From the NCBI GenBank assembly GCA_012838235.1, contig DUPQ01000051.1, forward strand, positions 1 to 64,000: a stretch of DNA of 64,000 bases, given 5' to 3'. This document shows positions 2,251-13,195 of this stretch, piece by piece; within the stretch, counting starts at the first letter, position 1, and each line of letters opens with the position of its first letter. The notes under the pieces are model-generated. The model was not told where the DNA came from, did not search any database, and saw only the letters and a list, made by a program, of their open reading frames with translations. The translations under genes and the position numbers were made by a program. The DNA is from Clostridiaceae bacterium. Lineage in GTDB: Bacteria > Bacillota > Clostridia > DUPQ01.

Positions 2251-3372
2251 TTATATAGCCTGTCTCATCCAACCTTTGTTTTTCTTATCCAGCGGTTCTC
2301 TTCCTAAAATCTCTCTTGCAGTTTTAACATAGTATCTGTACAACTCCAGTGAGGAACCGTTGGGTATTCTGTGATCCAGACCGAAAACAATACCGCCTTT
2401 TAACATTGAAGGTTGCATCTTATACTCCAACTCTTTTAATACCGCAAGTTTACTGTCTCTTAAAATGAACTTATCTATACCGCCTTTAAGTGATAACCTT
2501 GTACCATATTTTGCGTGTACTTTTACTATATCCATTCCAGCAGCAGGTTCCATTGGATACATCTGATTCAATCCGCAATTCAGAAAAGCATCTATGACGG
2601 AATTCATGTTTCCGTCGGAGTCCTGAACAAATATTGTACACCCGTTATTTTTGTAAGCATCCCATATTTTAAGATAATAAGGCTGTAAGAATTCTTCTAT
2701 ATGAACAGGCCCTATAAGCGAACCGGATTTTCCCGCCATATCCTCATGAATGTGTAAATGATCGACAATTAAGTGCTTGGAAAGTCTCTCGCAACATTTA
2801 ATAGCGGTATCCGCCGCGGTATTGAGAATATCTTCTATCAGTTCCGGTTGTTCATAGTAGGCATAACAGAGTTCCTCTTCTCCCATCAATTGTCTGGGTA
2901 AATCGAATCCGCCCGGAACTTCCGCCCGCACCATAACACCTTGTTTTTGCTGTTCTTTAGCGTTTTCTACCTGGTTATAATCTATCCTTTCTTCCCTGAA
3001 CTGATACAGATGCTTCAATTTTAACCAGTCATCCATATTTTTAACGGGATAATCCATTGGTAGCGGTATGGTTGCGGCTCCTTTCATCAATTTCATTTTT
3101 CTTCCCAAGGCATCGATAGTGATAATATGTTCCTTTGTTTCTTCTATTACTCTTTCTTCAGGACCGTCAAATATATCGCAATTTGCACCGCAGTTAACAT
3201 ACGGAACATAGTCCCAGTCAAATGCCGTCATATTTATTTCATCTTCGGTAGCGCCCTGTTCAATCCATTCCTCTTCCAGACCTATAAGCGGTCCGAACAG
3301 TTCTACAAACATAGGCCTTTTATTCTCTTTAAACGTTACATAATCCAAATATTCTTTTCTGTCCCAGCGCAT
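2251..3372 (-). CDS. Uroporphyrinogen decarboxylase (URO-D) family protein, not HemE
   Basis: A 373-residue URO-D fold protein resembling the methyltransferase-like URO-D families (MtaA/CmuA-type superfamily) more than the heme enzyme HemE. Visible segments include VPGGFDLPRQLMG, VDHLHIHEDMAGKSG, FVQDSDGN and the C-terminal GLDHRIPNGSSLE. The usual GCDH-type zinc-ligand segment of corrinoid methyltransferases reads GLDHR here, so metal binding is uncertain. No corrinoid protein or heme gene lies nearby, so the substrate is unknown. The start at 3372 has GGAGG upstream. The gene lies between holA and rpsT, which are adjacent in many Firmicutes, suggesting an insertion at that junction. Soluble; no signal peptide. 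Confidence 0.8.
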   Translation of the reverse strand: MRWDRKEYLDYVTFKENKRPMFVELFGPLIGLEEEWIEQGATEDEINMTAFDWDYVPYVNCGANCDIFDGPEERVIEETKEHIITIDALGRKMKLMKGAATIPLPMDYPVKNMDDWLKLKHLYQFREERIDYNQVENAKEQQKQGVMVRAEVPGGFDLPRQLMGEEELCYAYYEQPELIEDILNTAADTAIKCCERLSKHLIVDHLHIHEDMAGKSGSLIGPVHIEEFLQPYYLKIWDAYKNNGCTIFVQDSDGNMNSVIDAFLNCGLNQMYPMEPAAGMDIVKVHAKYGTRLSLKGGIDKFILRDSKLAVLKELEYKMQPSMLKGGIVFGLDHRIPNGSSLELYRYYVKTAREILGREPLDKKNKGWMRQAI

Positions 3373-4386: not shown

Positions 4387-6708
4387 TCATCTGTATTTAA
4401 ACAGATAGTATTTTCTGTTTATAAGATATACGGTAACCGATCCGTTAATATCCGTTCGCAAGGTATTTATACCTTTTTCCGCAAGTGTATCCAGAGTTTT
4501 TCTTCCCGGATGACCGTACCTGTTATGTTTTCCGACCGATATAACCGCTATTTTCGGAGATATATAATGAATTATTTCCGAATTTATAGCCTTATCATCT
4601 CCGTGATGGGGCATCTTAATTATGTCACATTTTAAAAATATATCTGAAGGTATCTTTTTTATGTCCGCATCTCCGGTAAAAAGAAAACTACCGGCTTTTG
4701 TATACAGATTAAAAACTACCGAACCGTCATTTGCATTTGTATAAACGATATCAGTATCGGGGTTTAGTACTTTGATACAGACTCCTTCGGTTCTTATCTC
4801 ATCACCTCTTTTGAGCATACCGCAATATGTATCCGGATAATTCATGCTCAATTGGTCAGATAGTTTAATATTGTCCTTATGATTTGTATATGGAAGATAA
4901 ACATTATCCACCGAGAAGTTATCCAAAACATCTTCAATTGCACCGCAATGATCGGAATCGGAATGTGTAAGTATAATCATATCTATTTTATGTCCTGTAC
5001 GATATGCAACAGCGGATAAATCTATATATTCGCCTGTATCAATCATTATGTTATATCCGTTTGACAAGGTTATAACGGCGCAATCACCCTGCCCTACATC
5101 CATAAAAACGACTTTCGGAGTATTATTTATACAAATAGTTATTACGCATAATAGCGTTGCAACACTGATAACGATATATTTATTTATCCTGCTTTTAAAA
5201 GGTTTATACTTTATATACAAAAATGTGCATATAATAATGATAAGGAAAATATCGGGTATATGTTTAACATAGAGCTTTGAGTAAGGTAAATTGCCGATAT
5301 ATTCGGCAAACTTAATTAGAAAATTCGCCAACAACCCGAATAGGGGGCACATTATCCGGGGAAATAATATAGCGGTCCAAAGCGATAAAAGTAACGGAGT
5401 TATGAGTATAAAGATTATAAGATTGGAAAAGAGAGAGTAAGGATATATACAGTGAAACAACCTGTATGATATAAACACCGTTAAAGGTTGAACGGATAAT
5501 AGAAGACTTAGTGCGGATAGTACTTTTAGAATTACTGCTTTCAACTTTGTCTTCCTTATTCTTCTGTAATAGTCTTCCAATACAATATGTTTCTTCAGCA
5601 CCTTTTCCTGCAGGGTTTTCTTTAATTTATCAATCTGCAATACAAAAAATGAACGGATTTTTCTGCTGAACAATGCTATCGATACCACACAGCAGTAGGA
5701 CATAATAAAGCCGTAATCGTAAACAGATAAAGGATTTATCAAAATAATGATTAATGAAGAGAGACATATAGGCAGATACCTGTTGGAGTCGAAATAGAGC
5801 ATATTGGAGAAGAATAATGTAACAATACATAATGCCGCTCTGATTGCACTTATTCTTAAGCCTGTAAATACAAGTAAAAATAATACTGCAAATATTGTGA
5901 ATATCATAGAGAATCTGTTGTTCTTTGATAATAAAGTTAATAAATAATAAAACGGAATGATTAATATGTTGAAGTGGGTGCCGGATATGCTTAAGATGTG
6001 CGATAATCCGCTTTTTTGGAATGTACTTGTTGTGTTTCTGTCCAGATAAGTACGTGAACCGGCTATAAGTGCTGTAACAATTCCTCTTTTATCTTCATTT
6101 AGATGCTTCATTACCCTTTCTACCGCTTTTTCTCTTATATTCCCTATAAACCCGATAAACGGTTTACTACCTATCTTTGATATATTTCCCCTGTTTACGT
6201 ATATATCCGCCGATATATTCTTTGAATAACAGTATTTTTGATAATCAAACTGTCCTTTATTACCTGCACTTTCCGGCTTATACAACAGTCCTGACAGTTC
6301 AATAATATCCCCTATCCTTATATAATCATCCTTCATAGTGACAAAATAGTTAAAACCGTTATTGCATTTCAATATAACTTTAAACTTATTCACTTGATCC
6401 TTAACTATTTCCGTTACATACCCCGTCAATCGAACTTCTTTCCGGTTTTCATCTGAATAGTCATTTTCTATATTCATAAACAGAAGACGTGAAAAGAAGA
6501 AAAATACGGTAAATGCAATTACAAAGAATGAAAGAAGCAAAACCTTAATAATCTTTGCTACGGATTTATCCTTAGTATAAATAAAAAGAACGGTAACGGA
6601 AATCAACCCTGAAATCAATAAAACCGTAATATTAAAGTTTGTACTCAATATTATTGCCGTTATTGAATATAGCGTTAACAAAGGAATAAAGGATTTTTTT
6701 ATTACCAT
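4387..6708 (-). CDS. comEC: ComEC/Rec2 family DNA-uptake channel protein
   Basis: Polytopic membrane protein of the competence machinery that passes single-stranded DNA across the membrane; 773 residues, full length. Order: N-terminal membrane helices and OB-like DUF4131 region (1-190), competence domain with multiple TM segments including SGLSHILSISGTHFNI (about 225-510), and a C-terminal metallo-beta-lactamase domain with VFMDVGQGDCAV, ILTHSDSDHCGAI, FTGDAD and MPHHGDD, so the metal ligands are present. The start at 6708 has no convincing Shine-Dalgarno sequence, which is odd for this AG-rich-leader genome. The rest of the com machinery is not in the window, so whether the organism is transformable cannot be told. 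Confidence 0.9.
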   Translation of the reverse strand: MVIKKSFIPLLTLYSITAIILSTNFNITVLLISGLISVTVLFIYTKDKSVAKIIKVLLLSFFVIAFTVFFFFSRLLFMNIENDYSDENRKEVRLTGYVTEIVKDQVNKFKVILKCNNGFNYFVTMKDDYIRIGDIIELSGLLYKPESAGNKGQFDYQKYCYSKNISADIYVNRGNISKIGSKPFIGFIGNIREKAVERVMKHLNEDKRGIVTALIAGSRTYLDRNTTSTFQKSGLSHILSISGTHFNILIIPFYYLLTLLSKNNRFSMIFTIFAVLFLLVFTGLRISAIRAALCIVTLFFSNMLYFDSNRYLPICLSSLIIILINPLSVYDYGFIMSYCCVVSIALFSRKIRSFFVLQIDKLKKTLQEKVLKKHIVLEDYYRRIRKTKLKAVILKVLSALSLLLSVQPLTVFISYRLFHCIYPYSLFSNLIIFILITPLLLSLWTAILFPRIMCPLFGLLANFLIKFAEYIGNLPYSKLYVKHIPDIFLIIIICTFLYIKYKPFKSRINKYIVISVATLLCVITICINNTPKVVFMDVGQGDCAVITLSNGYNIMIDTGEYIDLSAVAYRTGHKIDMIILTHSDSDHCGAIEDVLDNFSVDNVYLPYTNHKDNIKLSDQLSMNYPDTYCGMLKRGDEIRTEGVCIKVLNPDTDIVYTNANDGSVVFNLYTKAGSFLFTGDADIKKIPSDIFLKCDIIKMPHHGDDKAINSEIIHYISPKIAVISVGKHNRYGHPGRKTLDTLAEKGINTLRTDINGSVTVYLINRKYYLFKYR

Positions 6709-6788
6709 TGTTATACGATATTTTATTAAACTGTATTAATGAATAAACAAAACCAAAAAGGTATTAGTAAATAAAGATAACTTTTATA

Positions 6789-8459
6789 TTATTTCTTTTC
6801 AGTGAGCTTATCTATTTCCTTATTTACTCTTTCTCTAAGATTGATAATATATTCGATATCTTCAGGGAATTTACTGAAGGATATTTTCCCGTTACTCTCA
6901 ATAATTTTCATCACATGCTCATAGGAAGTCAGTGACTCCAACTTTAAGAATGCTCTCAAATCCTGTAATGCTTCATTAAATACTACAAGTCTTAAGGATT
7001 TAAGCGGTTTACCGTCATGTCCCGGATATACCGAATATGCATCTCCCGCAGGAGCGAAGAAATCACCGTCGGTTATAAGGAAGGGATTAACAAGTTTTCT
7101 GGAATATTGGTTATAGTAGAAATTATAGCCCCATTGTAAAAATCCTGAAATTCTGTATTTATATAACTGTGTGCCTATTATTCTGTTTCTCTGTGACGGC
7201 ATTGCAATAAATCTGTTACTGACGTCAATAAACTGACCGCAACAGTAATATATCCATAGATTATCTATGTTTTGTTTAAGAAAGGGTTCAATCTTATCCG
7301 TTGCGGGAATGGGAGATGTTACAATTCCCTGTTTGTAGAATTCTATGGAAGATAAGGCATCGGTTACAAGATAACCGTCTAAAAGATCGATAATGCTGTT
7401 TCTTGCATTTCTGTACCCTTCTATATTCTTCTCATTAGGCTCGTCGGAAATATGAAAGAAACACCTTTTATCTACACCTTTATTCTTAAGATAAACCAAA
7501 AGATTGGATATGAAGTCCCTTAGAAAAGAAATATATTCATCGGAAGTTGCATCGGTCTCCCATCCGAATATTCTTTTCTTCCTACCGTTGACATATGCTA
7601 CAACTTTCGGTGCATGCTTTGCACCCCATTGGGTAAAAAAGTGAGAGATTTCGAAATATTCAAATCCTATCTCATTACACATATCTATCCATTTATCCAG
7701 TAAATCATATGAGTATTCATAACCGGAAGATGTTTTTGTAATATCCACCAGTTGCATTGTCGGTCGCTCCCCTCCTATCTTGGTATCTAAAGGCGGGGTA
7801 AGTACCGGAGTCAGTATGGCATTAATACCGTACTCATAAGCCGTTTTGAGAAAATTCTTCATAATTGCAAAATGTTTTTTGCTTAACGGTTTAACTGCGT
7901 AATAAGAAGCTAAACAGTCACCGTGAAACCACTGTGTAAATGTAATTCTTTTATCGGATAACATAGAATTGATTATATTAACCGATACATTCGTTGAAGC
8001 AACCGTATTACCGTCATTATCGGTAAAATAGCATTTAATAACATAATCTCCGTAAAAACATGTGTTATTACTTAAATCCACCTCTATAAACAGCGACTGC
8101 AGAAGATCAGGTACGAAATAGACATTGTCTTTTTTATCATACGGACATAATAAATCGGGATAACAATGGGGTACTTTACGCTGATAATTATCGGTCGGTA
8201 AATTGTGATATACGGGCAGCCTGACAGCAACCGATTCCACTTTATAAACCCGTATAAATTCCTTCAACTCCGATTTTATATGAAAATAACAGGGGCTTTT
8301 ATCCTTTAAAGTATCGCTTGTCATAGTATATGCAATCTGGAAATTAAGTTTTTCATTCAGTAAACAGGAAAATGAAGTATATTGCTTCTTGTCTTGTATA
8401 TTATCGTCCAAAAAACATTTCTCCAATGATGATACACACTTTACAATGTAATTATTCAC
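6789..8459 (-). CDS. GH123-like (DUF4091) glycosidase, probable beta-N-acetylgalactosaminidase
   Basis: A 556-residue protein of the family once called DUF4091 and now GH123 catalytic domain. An N-terminal beta-rich region (1-165) precedes the barrel. The FHISDEP motif places an Asp-Glu pair at residues 339-340, matching the adjacent acid/base pair of GH123 enzymes, where the 2-acetamido group acts as nucleophile. The C-terminal YPGHDGKPLKSLRL segment is a family hallmark. GTG start overlaps the kinase stop by 4 bases (GTGA), so the two are translationally coupled. No signal peptide: it should act in the cytoplasm on imported GalNAc-containing oligosaccharides. Substrate is inferred from family and neighbours; GlcNAc linkage or another beta-HexNAc substrate is possible. 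Confidence 0.75.
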   Translation of the reverse strand: MNNYIVKCVSSLEKCFLDDNIQDKKQYTSFSCLLNEKLNFQIAYTMTSDTLKDKSPCYFHIKSELKEFIRVYKVESVAVRLPVYHNLPTDNYQRKVPHCYPDLLCPYDKKDNVYFVPDLLQSLFIEVDLSNNTCFYGDYVIKCYFTDNDGNTVASTNVSVNIINSMLSDKRITFTQWFHGDCLASYYAVKPLSKKHFAIMKNFLKTAYEYGINAILTPVLTPPLDTKIGGERPTMQLVDITKTSSGYEYSYDLLDKWIDMCNEIGFEYFEISHFFTQWGAKHAPKVVAYVNGRKKRIFGWETDATSDEYISFLRDFISNLLVYLKNKGVDKRCFFHISDEPNEKNIEGYRNARNSIIDLLDGYLVTDALSSIEFYKQGIVTSPIPATDKIEPFLKQNIDNLWIYYCCGQFIDVSNRFIAMPSQRNRIIGTQLYKYRISGFLQWGYNFYYNQYSRKLVNPFLITDGDFFAPAGDAYSVYPGHDGKPLKSLRLVVFNEALQDLRAFLKLESLTSYEHVMKIIESNGKISFSKFPEDIEYIINLRERVNKEIDKLTEKK

Positions 8460-9547
8460 AGCTCACTTCCCATTTTTTGCACTATTTCATTCATTTTGGG
8501 TAAATACCCTTCTATTTCCTTAACCAGCTTAAATTGCGTTCTGGCGCGTATAAGATTATGGTTTTCTTTGTGTACCGCAAAATATATGTCGTTATTCAGA
8601 TAATCGGTGAGAAATCTCATGCCTATCTCCATGGTTATAAGTTTAATGGAAAACGGCAAAAGTGATAACTCAACAGCATTAATACTGTTCTTTACGGCTG
8701 CTAAAAAACCTTTTGTGAAATATATGAAGTTGTCCGTAACGAAATGAACTTTATCAAGATTCTCTTCATCTTCCTCAGCGGAAGATGAGGAAATTCTCAA
8801 CGCATCACCGTAATCGTAAAGTATTGAGCCCGGCATGACGGTATCCAGATCCAAAATACAGATAGGTTTATCGGTCGCATTATCAAATAAAAGATTGTTC
8901 AGTTTTGTATCATTGTGCGTAACTCTTAAAGGTATTTTACCCGACTTTATGTTCTCCAATATTATTCCACAATCGGCTTTTCTTTGATATAAAAAGTTAA
9001 TTTCATCGGAAACAGATGAGACTCTTCCCGCAACATCCCTCTTTACGGACATTTCGAAGTCACGGAATCGTTTTACTGTGTTATGAAAGTCTTTAATTGT
9101 TTCATGAAGAGTGCTCATATCGTAATCGGAAAGCATATTCAAAAAATCACCGAATGCGTAGCCGCTGTCGCGTACTACCTGAAGATTCTTAGGTTGCTGA
9201 TATGTCGTAACATCGTCAATGTATAAATATGAGCGCCAGTAACAGTTGTCCGAATCCACATAAAACAATTTATTATCTTTTGTTTTGACAACGGATAACG
9301 TTTCTCTTCTTATATCGCCACCCCGTGCGGCAATCTTCTTTTTTAAAAACTCCGTCACATTATATATATTTTCCATAAGAGCGACGGGATTGGTAAAAAC
9401 CGTTGTGTTTATAAGTTGAAGGGTATATTTATCGCATGTTGTTTCCACTACATATGTTTTATTAATATGACCCGCACCTATGGGTTTTATTGAAATAATA
9501 TCTCCCTCATAACGAAATCTGCCTGCAACGGAAGTTTCTCTGTTCAT
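8456..9547 (-). CDS. nahK: N-acetylhexosamine 1-kinase-like protein (NahK-like, APH fold)
   Basis: Aminoglycoside-phosphotransferase-fold kinase of 363 residues. It resembles bifidobacterial NahK, which phosphorylates GlcNAc and GalNAc at C1. Shared features are GAGHINKTYVV near residue 24, PLRVTHNDTKLNN with the catalytic HND at 211-213, the metal-binding DLDTVMPGS at 233-241, and EEDEENLDKVHF. ATG at 9547 is preceded by GGAGGAG. It lies between the NagB-like gene and the GH123-like gene, so an amino-sugar substrate fits better than an antibiotic. A GalT/GalE pair or a phosphomutase would be needed downstream but is not in this cluster. Kinase fold is certain; exact sugar is inferred. Confidence 0.82.
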   Translation of the reverse strand: MNRETSVAGRFRYEGDIISIKPIGAGHINKTYVVETTCDKYTLQLINTTVFTNPVALMENIYNVTEFLKKKIAARGGDIRRETLSVVKTKDNKLFYVDSDNCYWRSYLYIDDVTTYQQPKNLQVVRDSGYAFGDFLNMLSDYDMSTLHETIKDFHNTVKRFRDFEMSVKRDVAGRVSSVSDEINFLYQRKADCGIILENIKSGKIPLRVTHNDTKLNNLLFDNATDKPICILDLDTVMPGSILYDYGDALRISSSSAEEDEENLDKVHFVTDNFIYFTKGFLAAVKNSINAVELSLLPFSIKLITMEIGMRFLTDYLNNDIYFAVHKENHNLIRARTQFKLVKEIEGYLPKMNEIVQKMGSEL

Positions 9548-9559
9548 ATGCTCCTCCTG

Positions 9560-10324
9560 CTATAGCTTAGATGCGCTGTCTTTGTCTAAATAGAGCTTTG
9601 CAGCTAAATGCAGTCTCAGTATACTTGCAGGACACTTCTCCTCTATTTTGCCGTTTAAAGTGTCATAAACCGCATTTGCTTTGGTAGGTGCCGGCACAAT
9701 ACAGAAAAGTTTTTTTCCCTCAAAAAGAGCCGGTATTGTTAATGTAATGGCATATTTAGGTACCTGATGAATATTTTCAAAGCACTTATCGTTAACCTGC
9801 TGCTGACGACATAACTCATCCAGTTTTACTATTTTAACTTTGACTTTATCGGAAAAATCCGCAACCGGAGGATCATTAAAAGCGATATGTCCGTTCTCCC
9901 CTATTCCCATACAGACAATATCAATAGTGTTATTGTTCAACAATTCTTCATAACGCATACATTCTTTTGTCACATCTTCCGCCGTACCGTCAATATAGTT
10001 GACCGTCTTAAAGTTTAATTTTGAAAAAAGAGCATTCATAAGAAAATTACCGAATGCCTGCGGTGCATCCTTATCAATACCTAAATATTCATCCATATGA
10101 TAAGCATTTATTCTTGTCCAGTCTATATCCTTATACGATATAAGGGTTTGCAAAAAGTCATTCTGTGACGGTGCCGCGGCAAAGAGCATATTAATTTCAT
10201 CTTTTGTTTTAAATAATTTCAATATCTCACTGCGTACATCCTGAGCGGCTTTTAAGCCCATCTCTCTTCTTGTATCAAATACCGATACTTCCAAATTGTC
10301 TTTTTTGAAATTTTTAATTAACAT
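9560..10324 (-). CDS. nagB: Glucosamine-6-phosphate deaminase family protein (NagB-like)
   Basis: A 254-residue enzyme of the NagB/6-phosphogluconolactonase family, expected to convert an amino-sugar 6-phosphate to a ketose 6-phosphate plus ammonia. Catalytic segments are present: YHMDEYLG (about 88-95) and GIGENGHIAFNDPP (about 141-154) with the Asp/Glu/His set. It is first in a three-gene operon with the NahK-like kinase and GH123-like glycosidase; 12 bases separate it from the kinase. It ends in TAG, which shows TAG works as a stop in this genome. SD AAAGGAG precedes ATG at 10324. Galactosamine-6-phosphate could also be the substrate given the GH123 partner. Confidence 0.85.
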   Translation of the reverse strand: MLIKNFKKDNLEVSVFDTRREMGLKAAQDVRSEILKLFKTKDEINMLFAAAPSQNDFLQTLISYKDIDWTRINAYHMDEYLGIDKDAPQAFGNFLMNALFSKLNFKTVNYIDGTAEDVTKECMRYEELLNNNTIDIVCMGIGENGHIAFNDPPVADFSDKVKVKIVKLDELCRQQQVNDKCFENIHQVPKYAITLTIPALFEGKKLFCIVPAPTKANAVYDTLNGKIEEKCPASILRLHLAAKLYLDKDSASKL

Positions 10325-10457: not shown

Positions 10458-11876
10458 TTAATCTGTAAAACGTATCTCGGTTCTCGGTATAAAATATGAT
10501 GTCTGGTCATGTACATTGTTTATATCACCGTATTTATACAGATTAACTACATAGTATTCTCTATATTGATAAATTGAAGATATATTATACTCCAGAGGAA
10601 CCGATATCACACATCTTTTACCTGTAACTAAATCCAGAATTACCGCTTCATGATATATCGGATTGTTCTCTTGCGGGTAGGCATATCTTAAAAGCAGAAG
10701 ATTTGTGTTGGGAACGACGGTTATATTATCACACCTTTGATATTTCGAATCCTCGAATTTCCTTTTACTTCCGTCATTCAGATTAATAATCTCGGAGAAG
10801 ATATTTCTGTCTTTATCTAAAACCGAATTGAAAACATAGGGATAAATCATATTAAAGGAATTACTTCCGGCTTCTTCGTTATCAAATACGGTCCTGGCAG
10901 TAAGTTCAACAGTATCAATCTCAATTATTTTTCCGAAGCTTTGTAAATACGCATACCTGTTTTCTCTCCATTGCAGTACTCTTGTAAATGCCGGCGTATT
11001 CGGAACAGGTTTTTCTTCACCGGTAACGGTATCTTTTACCCATACATAACCTACTTCTTCCGTAGCTCTTTCAGTATAGAATAACATTTTTGTTCCGTCT
11101 CTGTTGAAGGAAGGTCTTATCGCCCACACTTTCAGATACTTAATTCCGTCTATCTCCCAAAAATTATCGTACATGGAATATCCCATTGTTTCGCTGAGAC
11201 AATATAGGTCCATTGTTTCCGCATCCAAATCCACCCAGAATAAAAAGCCGCCTTTCACCACAGCATATTTATTTGTCATCGGAATTCTTGTCAACTGTAA
11301 ATCAGTTCCATGAGAAAAAACCGGTTGTCTTCGACCGTCTTTTTCAATGTATGTATACTTGAATTCATAATCATACGGTCCTGCATAAATAACCAATGAA
11401 TCGGCATTTACAGGCTCTTCTCCGTCAACCGACAATACTTCATTGGGTAAACTTCCCGTTATTTCATGCGTTACGGGATCTCTTGAAGCCTGTAAGTTTT
11501 TAAAATCTTGGTTTGTAGGTTTCCTGACCAGATTGCCGTCAAGTGAGCGGAATACTCCCGGTAATGCAAATACGGGTAGGCTTTTACCGTTTACGAAAAT
11601 CATATTATCGATATATGTTCTTGAAGGTTTACCTGGTACTTCGGTACCGGTATTATCCGTTACAACTTCCTTCTGTGAGTCTGTTTGCTCTTCTTCGGTA
11701 ACTTCAAGATTAGGGGTACTTACCGTATCCGACTCAACGGGAACAACTGCGGTTTCCGTACCGGCCGTCTCTATCGGAATACTACTTTCTTTAACCTTTT
11801 CCTGACAACCTGTATAAGAAAATAACATGGACAACAGGATAAATAAAATAACGATAAATCTAAATATTTTTCTCAT
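10458..11876 (-). CDS. Uncharacterised lipoprotein, paralogue of its upstream neighbour
   Basis: Predicted surface lipoprotein of about 472 residues. The start is taken at ATG 11876 (MRKIFRFIVILF) because GGAG lies 7 bases upstream; a TTG 12 codons earlier lacks this. A hydrophobic signal ends in FSYTGC, a weak but plausible lipobox, followed by a Thr/Glu/Pro-rich linker of about 75 residues. The mature domain shares WVKDTVTG, PVPNT, RVLQWR, RYAYL and YPYVFN with the gene at 11909-13195, so the two arose by tandem duplication. Regularly spaced Tyr/Trp-rich strands suggest a beta-propeller-like fold, but I recognise no family. 32 bases follow the neighbour's stop. Confidence 0.8.
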   Translation of the reverse strand: MRKIFRFIVILFILLSMLFSYTGCQEKVKESSIPIETAGTETAVVPVESDTVSTPNLEVTEEEQTDSQKEVVTDNTGTEVPGKPSRTYIDNMIFVNGKSLPVFALPGVFRSLDGNLVRKPTNQDFKNLQASRDPVTHEITGSLPNEVLSVDGEEPVNADSLVIYAGPYDYEFKYTYIEKDGRRQPVFSHGTDLQLTRIPMTNKYAVVKGGFLFWVDLDAETMDLYCLSETMGYSMYDNFWEIDGIKYLKVWAIRPSFNRDGTKMLFYTERATEEVGYVWVKDTVTGEEKPVPNTPAFTRVLQWRENRYAYLQSFGKIIEIDTVELTARTVFDNEEAGSNSFNMIYPYVFNSVLDKDRNIFSEIINLNDGSKRKFEDSKYQRCDNITVVPNTNLLLLRYAYPQENNPIYHEAVILDLVTGKRCVISVPLEYNISSIYQYREYYVVNLYKYGDINNVHDQTSYFIPRTEIRFTD

Positions 11877-11908
11877 ATTCTTTCTCCGTTTATTATTTAT
11901 GAAACTAC

Positions 11909-13195
11909 TCAATCCGAATCTACCAATTCAATACCGGATATCGGTATGAAATATGCGGTCTGTATTATAATATCATCTTCCGGCTTATATATACTCAACA
12001 TTAAACAATCATTATGTTGCTTAAATGTTGAAACGGAATACTCATCGGGTACAGATATTATGCATATCTTACGTGTAGACAAATCCAAAACAACGGCTTC
12101 GCTATGCCATTTATTCTTGCTTACGGGATAAAGATATTTAAGAAGTAATAAATCAGAGCCGTTTACTCGTTCAATTTCCATGCACTTTGCATATTTGATA
12201 TCATCAAAATGATAAACTTCACCGTCATCATGTATGTCTATTATATGTGTTCCTCCGGGCATATCGGGAACAAAAACATAAGGATAAATGAAACCCAGTG
12301 TATCTTTAGAAAAAATCTTTGTGTCATGGATAACCTTTGAAGTTAAATTTACGGTATCAATTTCCTCGACTTTGCCGAATGGCGATGTTATATAGGCATA
12401 TCTGCCGTCTCTCCAACTTAAAACTCTGCTGTATCCTGTTGTGTTAGGTACCGGGTTCTCTTTTCCCGTTATTATATTTTTTACCCAGACTTTTCCTGTC
12501 TCTTTATCCGCTCTTCCCGAGTAAAATATCATAACCGTTCCATTGTCGTTAAAATACGGATTTGATGCCCATACATCATATTCCGACTTTAATTGTGAAT
12601 ATCCGTTTGTTTGAACATGACAATAGAAATCCAAAGACTCTCTATCGGGGTCTAATGAGAATAAGAAACCACCCTTTTCCACAAGGTATTTGTTTGAATT
12701 TGGAATTTTTATAAGATTCAAATAATCTGAATGGTTTGTCTGTATTATATACTTTTTCCCGTCTTTATTAATATACTCAAATTCCATTTCAAATATAACA
12801 CTAAAATTAACCCTTATACTACAGGTAAATGAATCTTTAATCAAAGTTATTTCTTCACTATCTAAGGAGAAAATAACGGAAGGCTGTTTTTTTACAGTTT
12901 CATCATCAGTTCTATCTATTTTTATATTCAGCTTTTCTATATCTTCTTCCGTCGCATATCTGATCAAAAAATCGTCCGATGTATAAAGTCCTTGAAAACA
13001 TTTACACTTGATGCTTCTTCCGTTCATTTTGATAATGCTGACTTTGTCGGTCTTAACAGGAATATATTCATAAGTATATTTTTCACTATCAGTAATGTAA
13101 TCGGTTTCATGTATGTTTTTTACACAACCGACAGAAACCGACAACAGTGCAAATATCAGCCATATCAGAATAGTGCTTGTTAAAAATTTTCTCAT
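11909..13195 (-). CDS. Uncharacterised lipoprotein, first of a tandem pair
   Basis: Predicted lipoprotein of 428 residues. Signal helix MRKFLTSTILIWLIFALLSV ends in SVGC (cysteine about residue 24), a good lipobox. Compared with the paralogue downstream it lacks the long Thr/Glu linker. The two share the order WVK-ITG, PVPNTT, RVLSWRDGRYAY, EEIDTVNLTSK, IYPYVF and an end of the form YFIP-I. It has its own promoter at 13213-13240, fused to the eno terminator, so the pair is transcribed separately from the glycolytic cluster. Function unknown; no enzyme motif seen. Confidence 0.8.
   Translation of the reverse strand: MRKFLTSTILIWLIFALLSVSVGCVKNIHETDYITDSEKYTYEYIPVKTDKVSIIKMNGRSIKCKCFQGLYTSDDFLIRYATEEDIEKLNIKIDRTDDETVKKQPSVIFSLDSEEITLIKDSFTCSIRVNFSVIFEMEFEYINKDGKKYIIQTNHSDYLNLIKIPNSNKYLVEKGGFLFSLDPDRESLDFYCHVQTNGYSQLKSEYDVWASNPYFNDNGTVMIFYSGRADKETGKVWVKNIITGKENPVPNTTGYSRVLSWRDGRYAYITSPFGKVEEIDTVNLTSKVIHDTKIFSKDTLGFIYPYVFVPDMPGGTHIIDIHDDGEVYHFDDIKYAKCMEIERVNGSDLLLLKYLYPVSKNKWHSEAVVLDLSTRKICIISVPDEYSVSTFKQHNDCLMLSIYKPEDDIIIQTAYFIPISGIELVDSD

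Follow-up and report, generated by a model that had tools for sequence, protein, structure and literature searches.

The window analysed here is a stretch of 64,000 nucleotides from an uncultured Clostridiaceae bacterium (contig DUPQ01000051.1; 64 kb of the 67 kb contig C22, from a 2.25 Mb genome that is 86% complete), and it carries on its reverse strand a compact operon of three genes, encoding a NagB-superfamily protein, a NahK-like N-acetylhexosamine (HexNAc) 1-kinase and a GH123 glycosidase (Table 1). In the order of transcription, the NagB-like gene is followed by a 12-base gap and the kinase gene, whose stop codon shares the bases GTGA with the start of the glycosidase gene, an overlap that would be expected to couple translation of the two; all three genes are intact and together fill positions 6789-10324. 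A first-pass annotation, made from the DNA letters alone, had given the positions, gene order and tight packing of the trio exactly. As argued below, the three genes probably form a cytoplasmic operon for the catabolism of beta-linked N-acetylgalactosamine (GalNAc), a reading held with moderate confidence.

Table 1. Features of the three-gene operon (window coordinates).
Feature	Position	Strand	Remarks
NagB-superfamily protein, 254 aa	9560..10324	(-)	First gene of the operon; FAAAPSQN replaces the TGSTP loop; catalytic motif GENGHIAFNDP
NahK-like N-acetylhexosamine 1-kinase, 363 aa, APH fold	8456..9547	(-)	HND at residues 211-213, DLD at 233-235
GH123 Group 4-like beta-N-acetylgalactosaminidase (by homology), 556 aa, GTG start	6789..8459	(-)	Catalytic D339-E340; no signal peptide by eye
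Kinase stop/glycosidase start overlap, 4 bases (GTGA)	8456..8459	(-)	Putative translational coupling

The GH123_cat domain of the glycosidase scores 359.7 bits against a Pfam cut-off of 23.1 (E 2.1e-107), the nearest solved protein is NgaP2 (8k2l, a pocket-type beta-GalNAcase of Group 4; E 2.2e-148, residues 4-549), and the adjacent catalytic Asp-Glu pair that the first-pass annotation had recognized is D339-E340. GH123 has been reconstituted as a single large family, in which beta-GalNAcases are split into groups, with Groups 3 and 4 nearer the main GH123 subfamily (PMC11087588). The Group 4 enzymes assayed in that source (NgaBf, NgaBl, NgaLy and NgaP2) cleave terminal beta-GalNAc and release the monosaccharide only; three of the four act on GalNAc-beta-p-nitrophenyl (pNP) alone, and NgaP2 has 4.7% activity on the N-acetylglucosamine (GlcNAc) substrate GlcNAc-beta-pNP. 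The window protein resembles NgaP2 of Paenibacillus sp. TS12 and NgaLy, both Group 4 MR-beta-N-acetylgalactosaminidases, in its full-length similarity, its DE pair and four of five extra NgaP2 substrate contacts (W177, D225, Q277 and W278, invariant in 10/10 aligned glycosidases), and its own activity is predicted from sequence. Allowing for a chain offset of 3, these contacts were mapped by hand from the alignment onto NgaP2 W196, D244, residue 297 and W298, residue 297 being D as printed in PMC11087588 and Q in the aligned chain. The NgaP2 positioning residue F489 is unmatched, the window protein having A469 at that position with F468 adjacent, but F489 is the positioning residue of one enzyme and is not known as required in Group 4. 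Where the first-pass annotation had allowed either GalNAc or GlcNAc, the subgroup of the glycosidase thus points to beta-GalNAc as the favoured substrate, and a GlcNAc-specific enzyme is less likely, judged by the closest solved relatives. Signal peptides were removed from five constructs, none of Group 4, according to the part of PMC11087588 that deals with constructs. Inspection by eye, without a signal-peptide predictor, likewise showed no hydrophobic segment in the N-terminus of the window protein, MNNYIVKCVSSLEKCFLDD, in agreement with the earlier claim of an intracellular enzyme.

The kinase contains an APH domain (E 1.4e-11, Pfam), and the solved protein nearest to it is NahK (4ocu, E 5.1e-95), with full-length similarity over residues 6-355. 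Its HND and DLD sequences are presumably functional kinase motifs. With the glycosidase nearest to NgaP2 and the kinase nearest to NahK, the HexNAc link that had been proposed for the operon appears sound. By homology the kinase belongs with the APH-fold HexNAc 1-kinases NahK of Bifidobacterium longum and BT4240 of B. thetaiotaomicron (PMC11992087, PMC8106489), BT4240 being likened here by description and not by sequence. BT4240 shares 39% identity with a B. longum NahK and is reported to be a GalNAc kinase whose product from GlcNAc was identified as the 1-phosphate, and growth on GalNAc requires it (PMC11992087). The window operon differs from the NahK and BT4240 systems in having no GH112 phosphorylase, uridylyltransferase or epimerase.

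By its profile scores, the first gene of the operon is not nagB proper, so that of the original family assignments those to GH123 and to the NahK type stand, on the evidence of Pfam and solved relatives, and that to NagB holds only at the level of the superfamily. A Glucosamine_iso domain is found (E 2.9e-14, Pfam) and the nearest solved protein is NagB 2bkv (E 1.4e-30, residues 62-252), but the protein lies under all matched NCBIfam nagB/agaI cut-offs, scoring 143 bits against the nagB equivalog TIGR00502 (cut-off 236.9) and 74.7 against the AgaI galactosamine-6-phosphate isomerase NF007291 (cut-off 271). With the glucosamine-6-phosphate deaminase NagB it shares, by sequence, the fold family and residues D78 (of MDEY), H146 (of GxNGH) and K215, which are invariant in an 11-sequence alignment and which we take to be the equivalents of NagB catalytic residues D72, H143 and K208. 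It differs from NagB in overall sequence (28-31% identity to three canonical-type NagB proteins), in having Asp for the Glu of canonical FNEP, and in a loop, 3 residues shorter, in which AAAPS replaces the canonical TGSTP, presumably the holder of the 6-phosphate in NagB. The change marks a subfamily seen in Clostridia, Bacteroidota and Alphaproteobacteria, whose members in the surveyed genomes of the class are ~47-79% identical to the window protein: TGSTP is present in 0/29 subfamily proteins and in 13/13 of canonical type, counting distinct proteins of at least 220 aa in the loci examined, genus included and near-copies dropped. Plasmids also carry related genes, with 55 plasmid records matching at 1e-20, of which 31 cover at least 80% of the query. 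Among eight examined closely, AAAPS or ASAPS occurs in 7/7 copies from Spirosoma, Microvirga, Ponticoccus, Devosia, Nitratireductor, Martelella and Agrobacterium, and a Subdoligranulum plasmid (L291) is the eighth with a subfamily copy. Because the gene belongs to a subfamily of its own in which the loop is altered, 6-phosphate deamination is not to be assumed, and the substrate of its product may lack a 6-phosphate. The catalytic Asp, His and Lys are kept. Neither the separate subfamily nor the canonical NagB encoded elsewhere in the genome had been noticed at first pass.

The operon is kept in 4/4 genomes of the genus, and the retention of its order and place there rules out a chance adjacency of three genes. 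In genomes G001, G002 and G003 the trio lies in identical order between enolase and comEC, the contig of G003 stopping within comEC. At E 1e-30 the glycosidase and the kinase are each found in 4/11 family genomes, namely the four of the genus, and in 0/7 genomes of two sister genera, and the NagB-like gene has the same genus-only pattern at 1e-40. Compared with G002, the ratio of nonsynonymous to synonymous polymorphism (pN/pS) is 0.19 for the NagB-like gene, 0.19 for the kinase and 0.20 for the glycosidase, and the corresponding values for comEC and enolase are 0.34 and 0.05, with synonymous sites close to saturation in this comparison; the three genes are therefore maintained, and are not chance open reading frames (ORFs). 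An operon-specific promoter or terminator was sought and rejected, the scan finding 10 promoter-like sites where shuffled sequence gave 16.8, and 2 sites of terminator type where it gave 2.0.

A gene-neighbourhood survey in Clostridia, as the first-pass annotation had suggested, showed that GH123 and NahK-type kinases co-occur and sometimes cluster, twice with canonical-type NagB (L131 and L229). Among 391 genomes of the class, evenly drawn from a larger group, the glycosidase was found in 70, the kinase in 119 and a NagB-like match at 1e-40 in 54. Outside the genus, the kinase occurs in 60/66 genomes with the glycosidase versus 55/321 without it (Fisher 4.8e-31, kinship ignored), and in 41 genomes with the NagB-like subfamily, hand-picked from matches at ~45% identity or more, the kinase is also present in 33 and the glycosidase in 21. 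The kinase lies within 8 kb of the glycosidase in 10/102 glycosidase loci, including L178, which belongs to the genus (Firmicutes bacterium ADurb.Bin146, glycosidase 72% identical to that of the window); these loci comprise 22 unnamed-genome and 80 named contigs, some identical and many short, such that the linkage is a lower bound. When linkage was mapped as a label on a tree of 91 distinct glycosidases, the 11 that are linked took 9 changes to explain, of which well-supported branches require at least 6; 27/500 shuffles were as low as 9, so that the label is only weakly clustered. Gain, loss or retention of the linkage has thus happened on more than one occasion.

The gene content of individual clusters is informative about the company that the kinase keeps. 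L131 reads GH123-NagB-NahK-NagA; L229 has a ROK::NahK fusion, NagB and GH123; L125 has GH123-NagA-NahK followed by an ABC permease and a solute-binding protein; and L126 has GalE, a nucleotidyltransferase, NahK and GH123 in a row, with permease-like genes (by cluster) further upstream. Among 18 loci of the kinase in Clostridia (one from G219, the other 17 among the best-scoring), a nucleotidyltransferase is present in 12, GalE in 6, NagB in 4 and NagA in 3. NagB stands beside NahK, as in the window, in L131, L162, L163, L165, L176 and L229, twice with GH123 and in some cases with NagA, a ROK kinase or a nucleotidyltransferase, but these clusters use canonical-type NagB (that of L131 alone was scored, above the cut-off) whereas the window uses the loop-less subfamily. 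Two proteins in these clusters are of unusual structure. The L229 fusion (5069-7132), whose gene adjoins those for NagB and GH123, is 687 aa long and joins a ROK-family to a NahK-like kinase; it is possibly a dual 6-kinase/1-kinase for HexNAc. L162 (9178-10809) encodes a possible NagB::ROK fusion, a 543-aa product with a NagB match that groups with ROK kinases and has NagA and a NahK-like kinase for neighbours.

That a deacetylase and a mutase are missing, as the first-pass annotation had it, is true of the operon but not of the genome. Three NagA proteins score above the curated cut-off (on C18, C68 and C31), GlmM is encoded on C6 and GalE on C55, and C77 carries a trio of a GlmU-N-like transferase, a GlmM-like mutase and a GalE-like epimerase. 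With NagA, GlmM, GalE and GlmU-like enzymes in the genome, a complete route from GalNAc-1-phosphate through UDP-GalNAc and UDP-GlcNAc (UDP, uridine diphosphate) to glucosamine-6-phosphate is possible on paper, and its use in the cell may be supposed.

The pathway envisaged for the operon would begin with the import of a short oligosaccharide bearing a non-reducing beta-linked GalNAc, from which the Group 4-like glycosidase, to judge from its close homologues, would free GalNAc by substrate-assisted catalysis. The NahK-like kinase would convert GalNAc to GalNAc-1-phosphate, and a GlmU-like uridylyltransferase, a GalE-type epimerase, a GlmM-type mutase and NagA, all present by homology, could carry it to hexosamine-6-phosphate. 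In the weakest step, the NagB-like protein would perform or aid the final deamination and isomerization to a ketose phosphate and ammonia. Deacetylation and deamination of GalNAc are likewise features of the Aga pathway (AgaA, AgaS, LacC) for GalNAc-6-phosphate, which, as described in PMC12118421 and PMC5583593, has its own entry by a phosphotransferase system or 6-kinase and a SIS-family AgaS. The catabolic reading is well supported because the glycosidase and kinase co-occur and have clustered repeatedly, twice with canonical-type NagB; and because canonical-type NagB adjoins NahK and GH123 in L131 and L229, the position of the NagB-like gene suggests that its product fills the place of NagB in HexNAc catabolism.

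Several observations weigh against this reading. The TGSTP loop is lost throughout the subfamily, and a canonical NagB is already present in the genome (C65, 270 bits against the cut-off of 236.9). The operon has no NagA gene, and no transporter was recognized in the ORF lists of the window (by eye and, past 19 kb, judged only on the first 70 residues). A nucleotidyltransferase of the L126 type was found in 0/11 family genomes, in a search without a positive control, and neighbouring mutase and epimerase genes of the C77 kind also occur in 6/7 sister-genus genomes, without the kinase, for which reason the pair is probably housekeeping. The co-occurrence statistic is uncorrected for relatedness, and none of the genes sought lies nearby in 92/102 glycosidase loci.

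The alternative that survives best, though still unlikely, is that the NagB-like protein, with a NagA-like partner (here that of C31), acts on an amino sugar without a 6-phosphate, turning free galactosamine or glucosamine into a ketohexose, or a hexosaminuronate into fructuronate or tagaturonate. GalNAc would then meet one of two fates, being phosphorylated at C1 or else deacetylated and deaminated as the free sugar. The missing loop, in the 29 subfamily proteins and the seven plasmid copies alike, is consistent with this, as are the surroundings of subfamily genes outside the genus: within 5 kb, a NagA-like gene is found in 19/27 loci and a NahK or ROK homologue, the only kinase families sought, in 0/27 (44% identity threshold; loci below 7 kb left out; 20/27 with 5 kb on both sides). 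The plasmid copy of L290, at 42% identity, falls below this threshold, and neither NahK nor ROK was found there; a BadF-like ORF lies, by eye, ~6 kb from the NagB-like gene in L156. A kinase accompanies canonical-type NagB in 6/8 loci, a biased sample, most having been chosen for a kinase or GH123. The genus gene itself, however, adjoins a sugar kinase, at the place that canonical-type NagB takes in L131 and L229, and K215 is retained.

The NagA-like partner bears on the same question. In 13/20 clostridial loci, chosen among the best-scoring, a NagA-like gene lies within three genes of the subfamily gene, and the C31 protein is the nearest own-genome NagA to these linked proteins in 13/13 cases (41-48% identity, versus 28-32% for C68 and 31-41% for C18), and it is probably the protein with which the operon's NagB-like product works. 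MSNagA and MMNagA are reported to be inactive on unphosphorylated GlcNAc, residue roles including a phosphate-binding Asn have been assigned in MSNagA, and modification of MMNagA Arg-225 abolished function (PMC6016474). In favour of a substrate without a 6-phosphate, the Asn position is Ser in 13/13 clostridial linked proteins and in the C31 copy, which differs from MSNagA by Ser for Asn-212, Cys for Ala-213 and Asp for Arg-220, with an Arg present at the Arg-219 position. Against such a substrate, the clostridial NagA-like proteins retain an Arg a few residues further along, the C31 protein passes the nagA equivalog cut-off (232.2 versus 225.65), and the partners in 6 alphaproteobacterial plasmid loci retain the aligned Asn and an Arg (those of Spirosoma and Subdoligranulum have Ser), which rules out loss of the NagA phosphate site in all phyla. 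In its own genome, the C31 gene (L028 4760-7952) stands beside a PF01261 TIM barrel and a Gfo/Idh dehydrogenase, an arrangement kept in three genus genomes.

Gfo/Idh dehydrogenases and PF01261 TIM barrels also recur next to the NagA-like/NagB-like pair elsewhere, together with GH88, GH20 and sulfatases, the first two again favouring a sugar without a 6-phosphate. Two lineages, L141/L151 and Agrobacterium, have UxuA together with a reductase close to the pair, which points the same way. L141 and L151 are closely related, however (94% identity between their UxuA proteins), and apart from Agrobacterium they are the only such cases among the surveyed loci; UxuA is missing from most clusters, and its linkage is ruled out as a general rule. 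The Agrobacterium plasmid (L290 6992-14741) has NagB-like, NagA-like, ABC transporter, UxuA and mannitol-dehydrogenase-family genes in one run, a candidate hexosaminuronate pathway. A conserved alphaproteobacterial run (L285-L289) consists of LacI, the NagB-like protein (annotated as 6-phosphogluconolactonase or glucosamine-6-phosphate deaminase), a SIS sugar isomerase, a NagA-like amidohydrolase, a ceramidase-N-like protein and an ABC transporter. An extended proposal, also doubtful, is that the NagA-like and loop-less NagB-like proteins are a widespread deacetylase/deaminase pair for amino sugars without a 6-phosphate, and that in this genus the deaminase joined the GH123-kinase operon and serves GalNAc; the candidate substrates of the pair would be free hexosamines, or hexosaminuronates that yield fructuronate and then, through the reductase and UxuA, 2-keto-3-deoxygluconate (KDG).

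It is less probable again that the kinase feeds UDP-GalNAc or UDP-GlcNAc synthesis in the salvage of surface glycan or wall material, with the glycosidase supplying GalNAc and the NagB-like protein trimming the amino-sugar pool. The sugar-1-phosphate nucleotidyltransferase and GalE genes that accompany NahK-type kinases in 12/18 and 6/18 loci would fit such a role, as would the setting of the operon among housekeeping genes with no transporter recognized, but L125, L131 and L165, where the kinase is joined by differing selections of NagB, NagA, a solute-binding protein and an ABC permease, look catabolic, and growth on GalNAc is reported to need BT4240 (PMC11992087). A truncated lacto-N-biose/galacto-N-biose (GLNBP) pathway, of which NahK is the kinase and would here be the remnant, is very improbable, the operon being without GH112; a genome search for GH112 gave 0/11 genomes, with all 14 controls silent too.

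The surroundings of the operon are housekeeping in character, with ligA, comEC and an enolase/tpi/pgk/gap block (names by eye). Between enolase and the operon lie two adjacent, overlapping and similar-looking lipoprotein-like genes (10458-13195, minus strand; 484 and 428 aa), which match no Pfam family above cut-off and are not at the corresponding place in G001, G002 and G003. On the other side, comEC and holA lie between the operon and a gene at 2251-3372 (minus strand), which for that reason was not counted as part of the operon; this gene, beside holA, encodes a uroporphyrinogen decarboxylase (URO-D)-family, MtaA-like protein that is ~82% identical in G001 and G002 and falls under the NCBIfam methyltransferase cut-offs that it matched.

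The component families of the operon are already known, and its oddity is the loop-less NagB-like gene. Among the open-access papers listed by the literature searches (subscription papers were outside their scope), no description was found of the three-gene NahK/GH123/NagB set, of the loop-less NagB subfamily or of its pairing with a NagA-like protein, and those listed for 6-phosphate-free hexosamine routes include none that names this gene set. By linking the Group 4 beta-GalNAcases, whose structures are recent, with a HexNAc 1-kinase of Clostridia, the operon and its relatives offer a testable intracellular route for beta-GalNAc. They also bring to light a cross-phylum NagB-like subfamily without the canonical TGSTP loop, plasmid copies of which are annotated as 6-phosphogluconolactonase or glucosamine-6-phosphate deaminase. 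If its substrate is indeed no 6-phosphate, many automatic annotations would be wrong, and an amino-sugar pathway would be missing from current maps.

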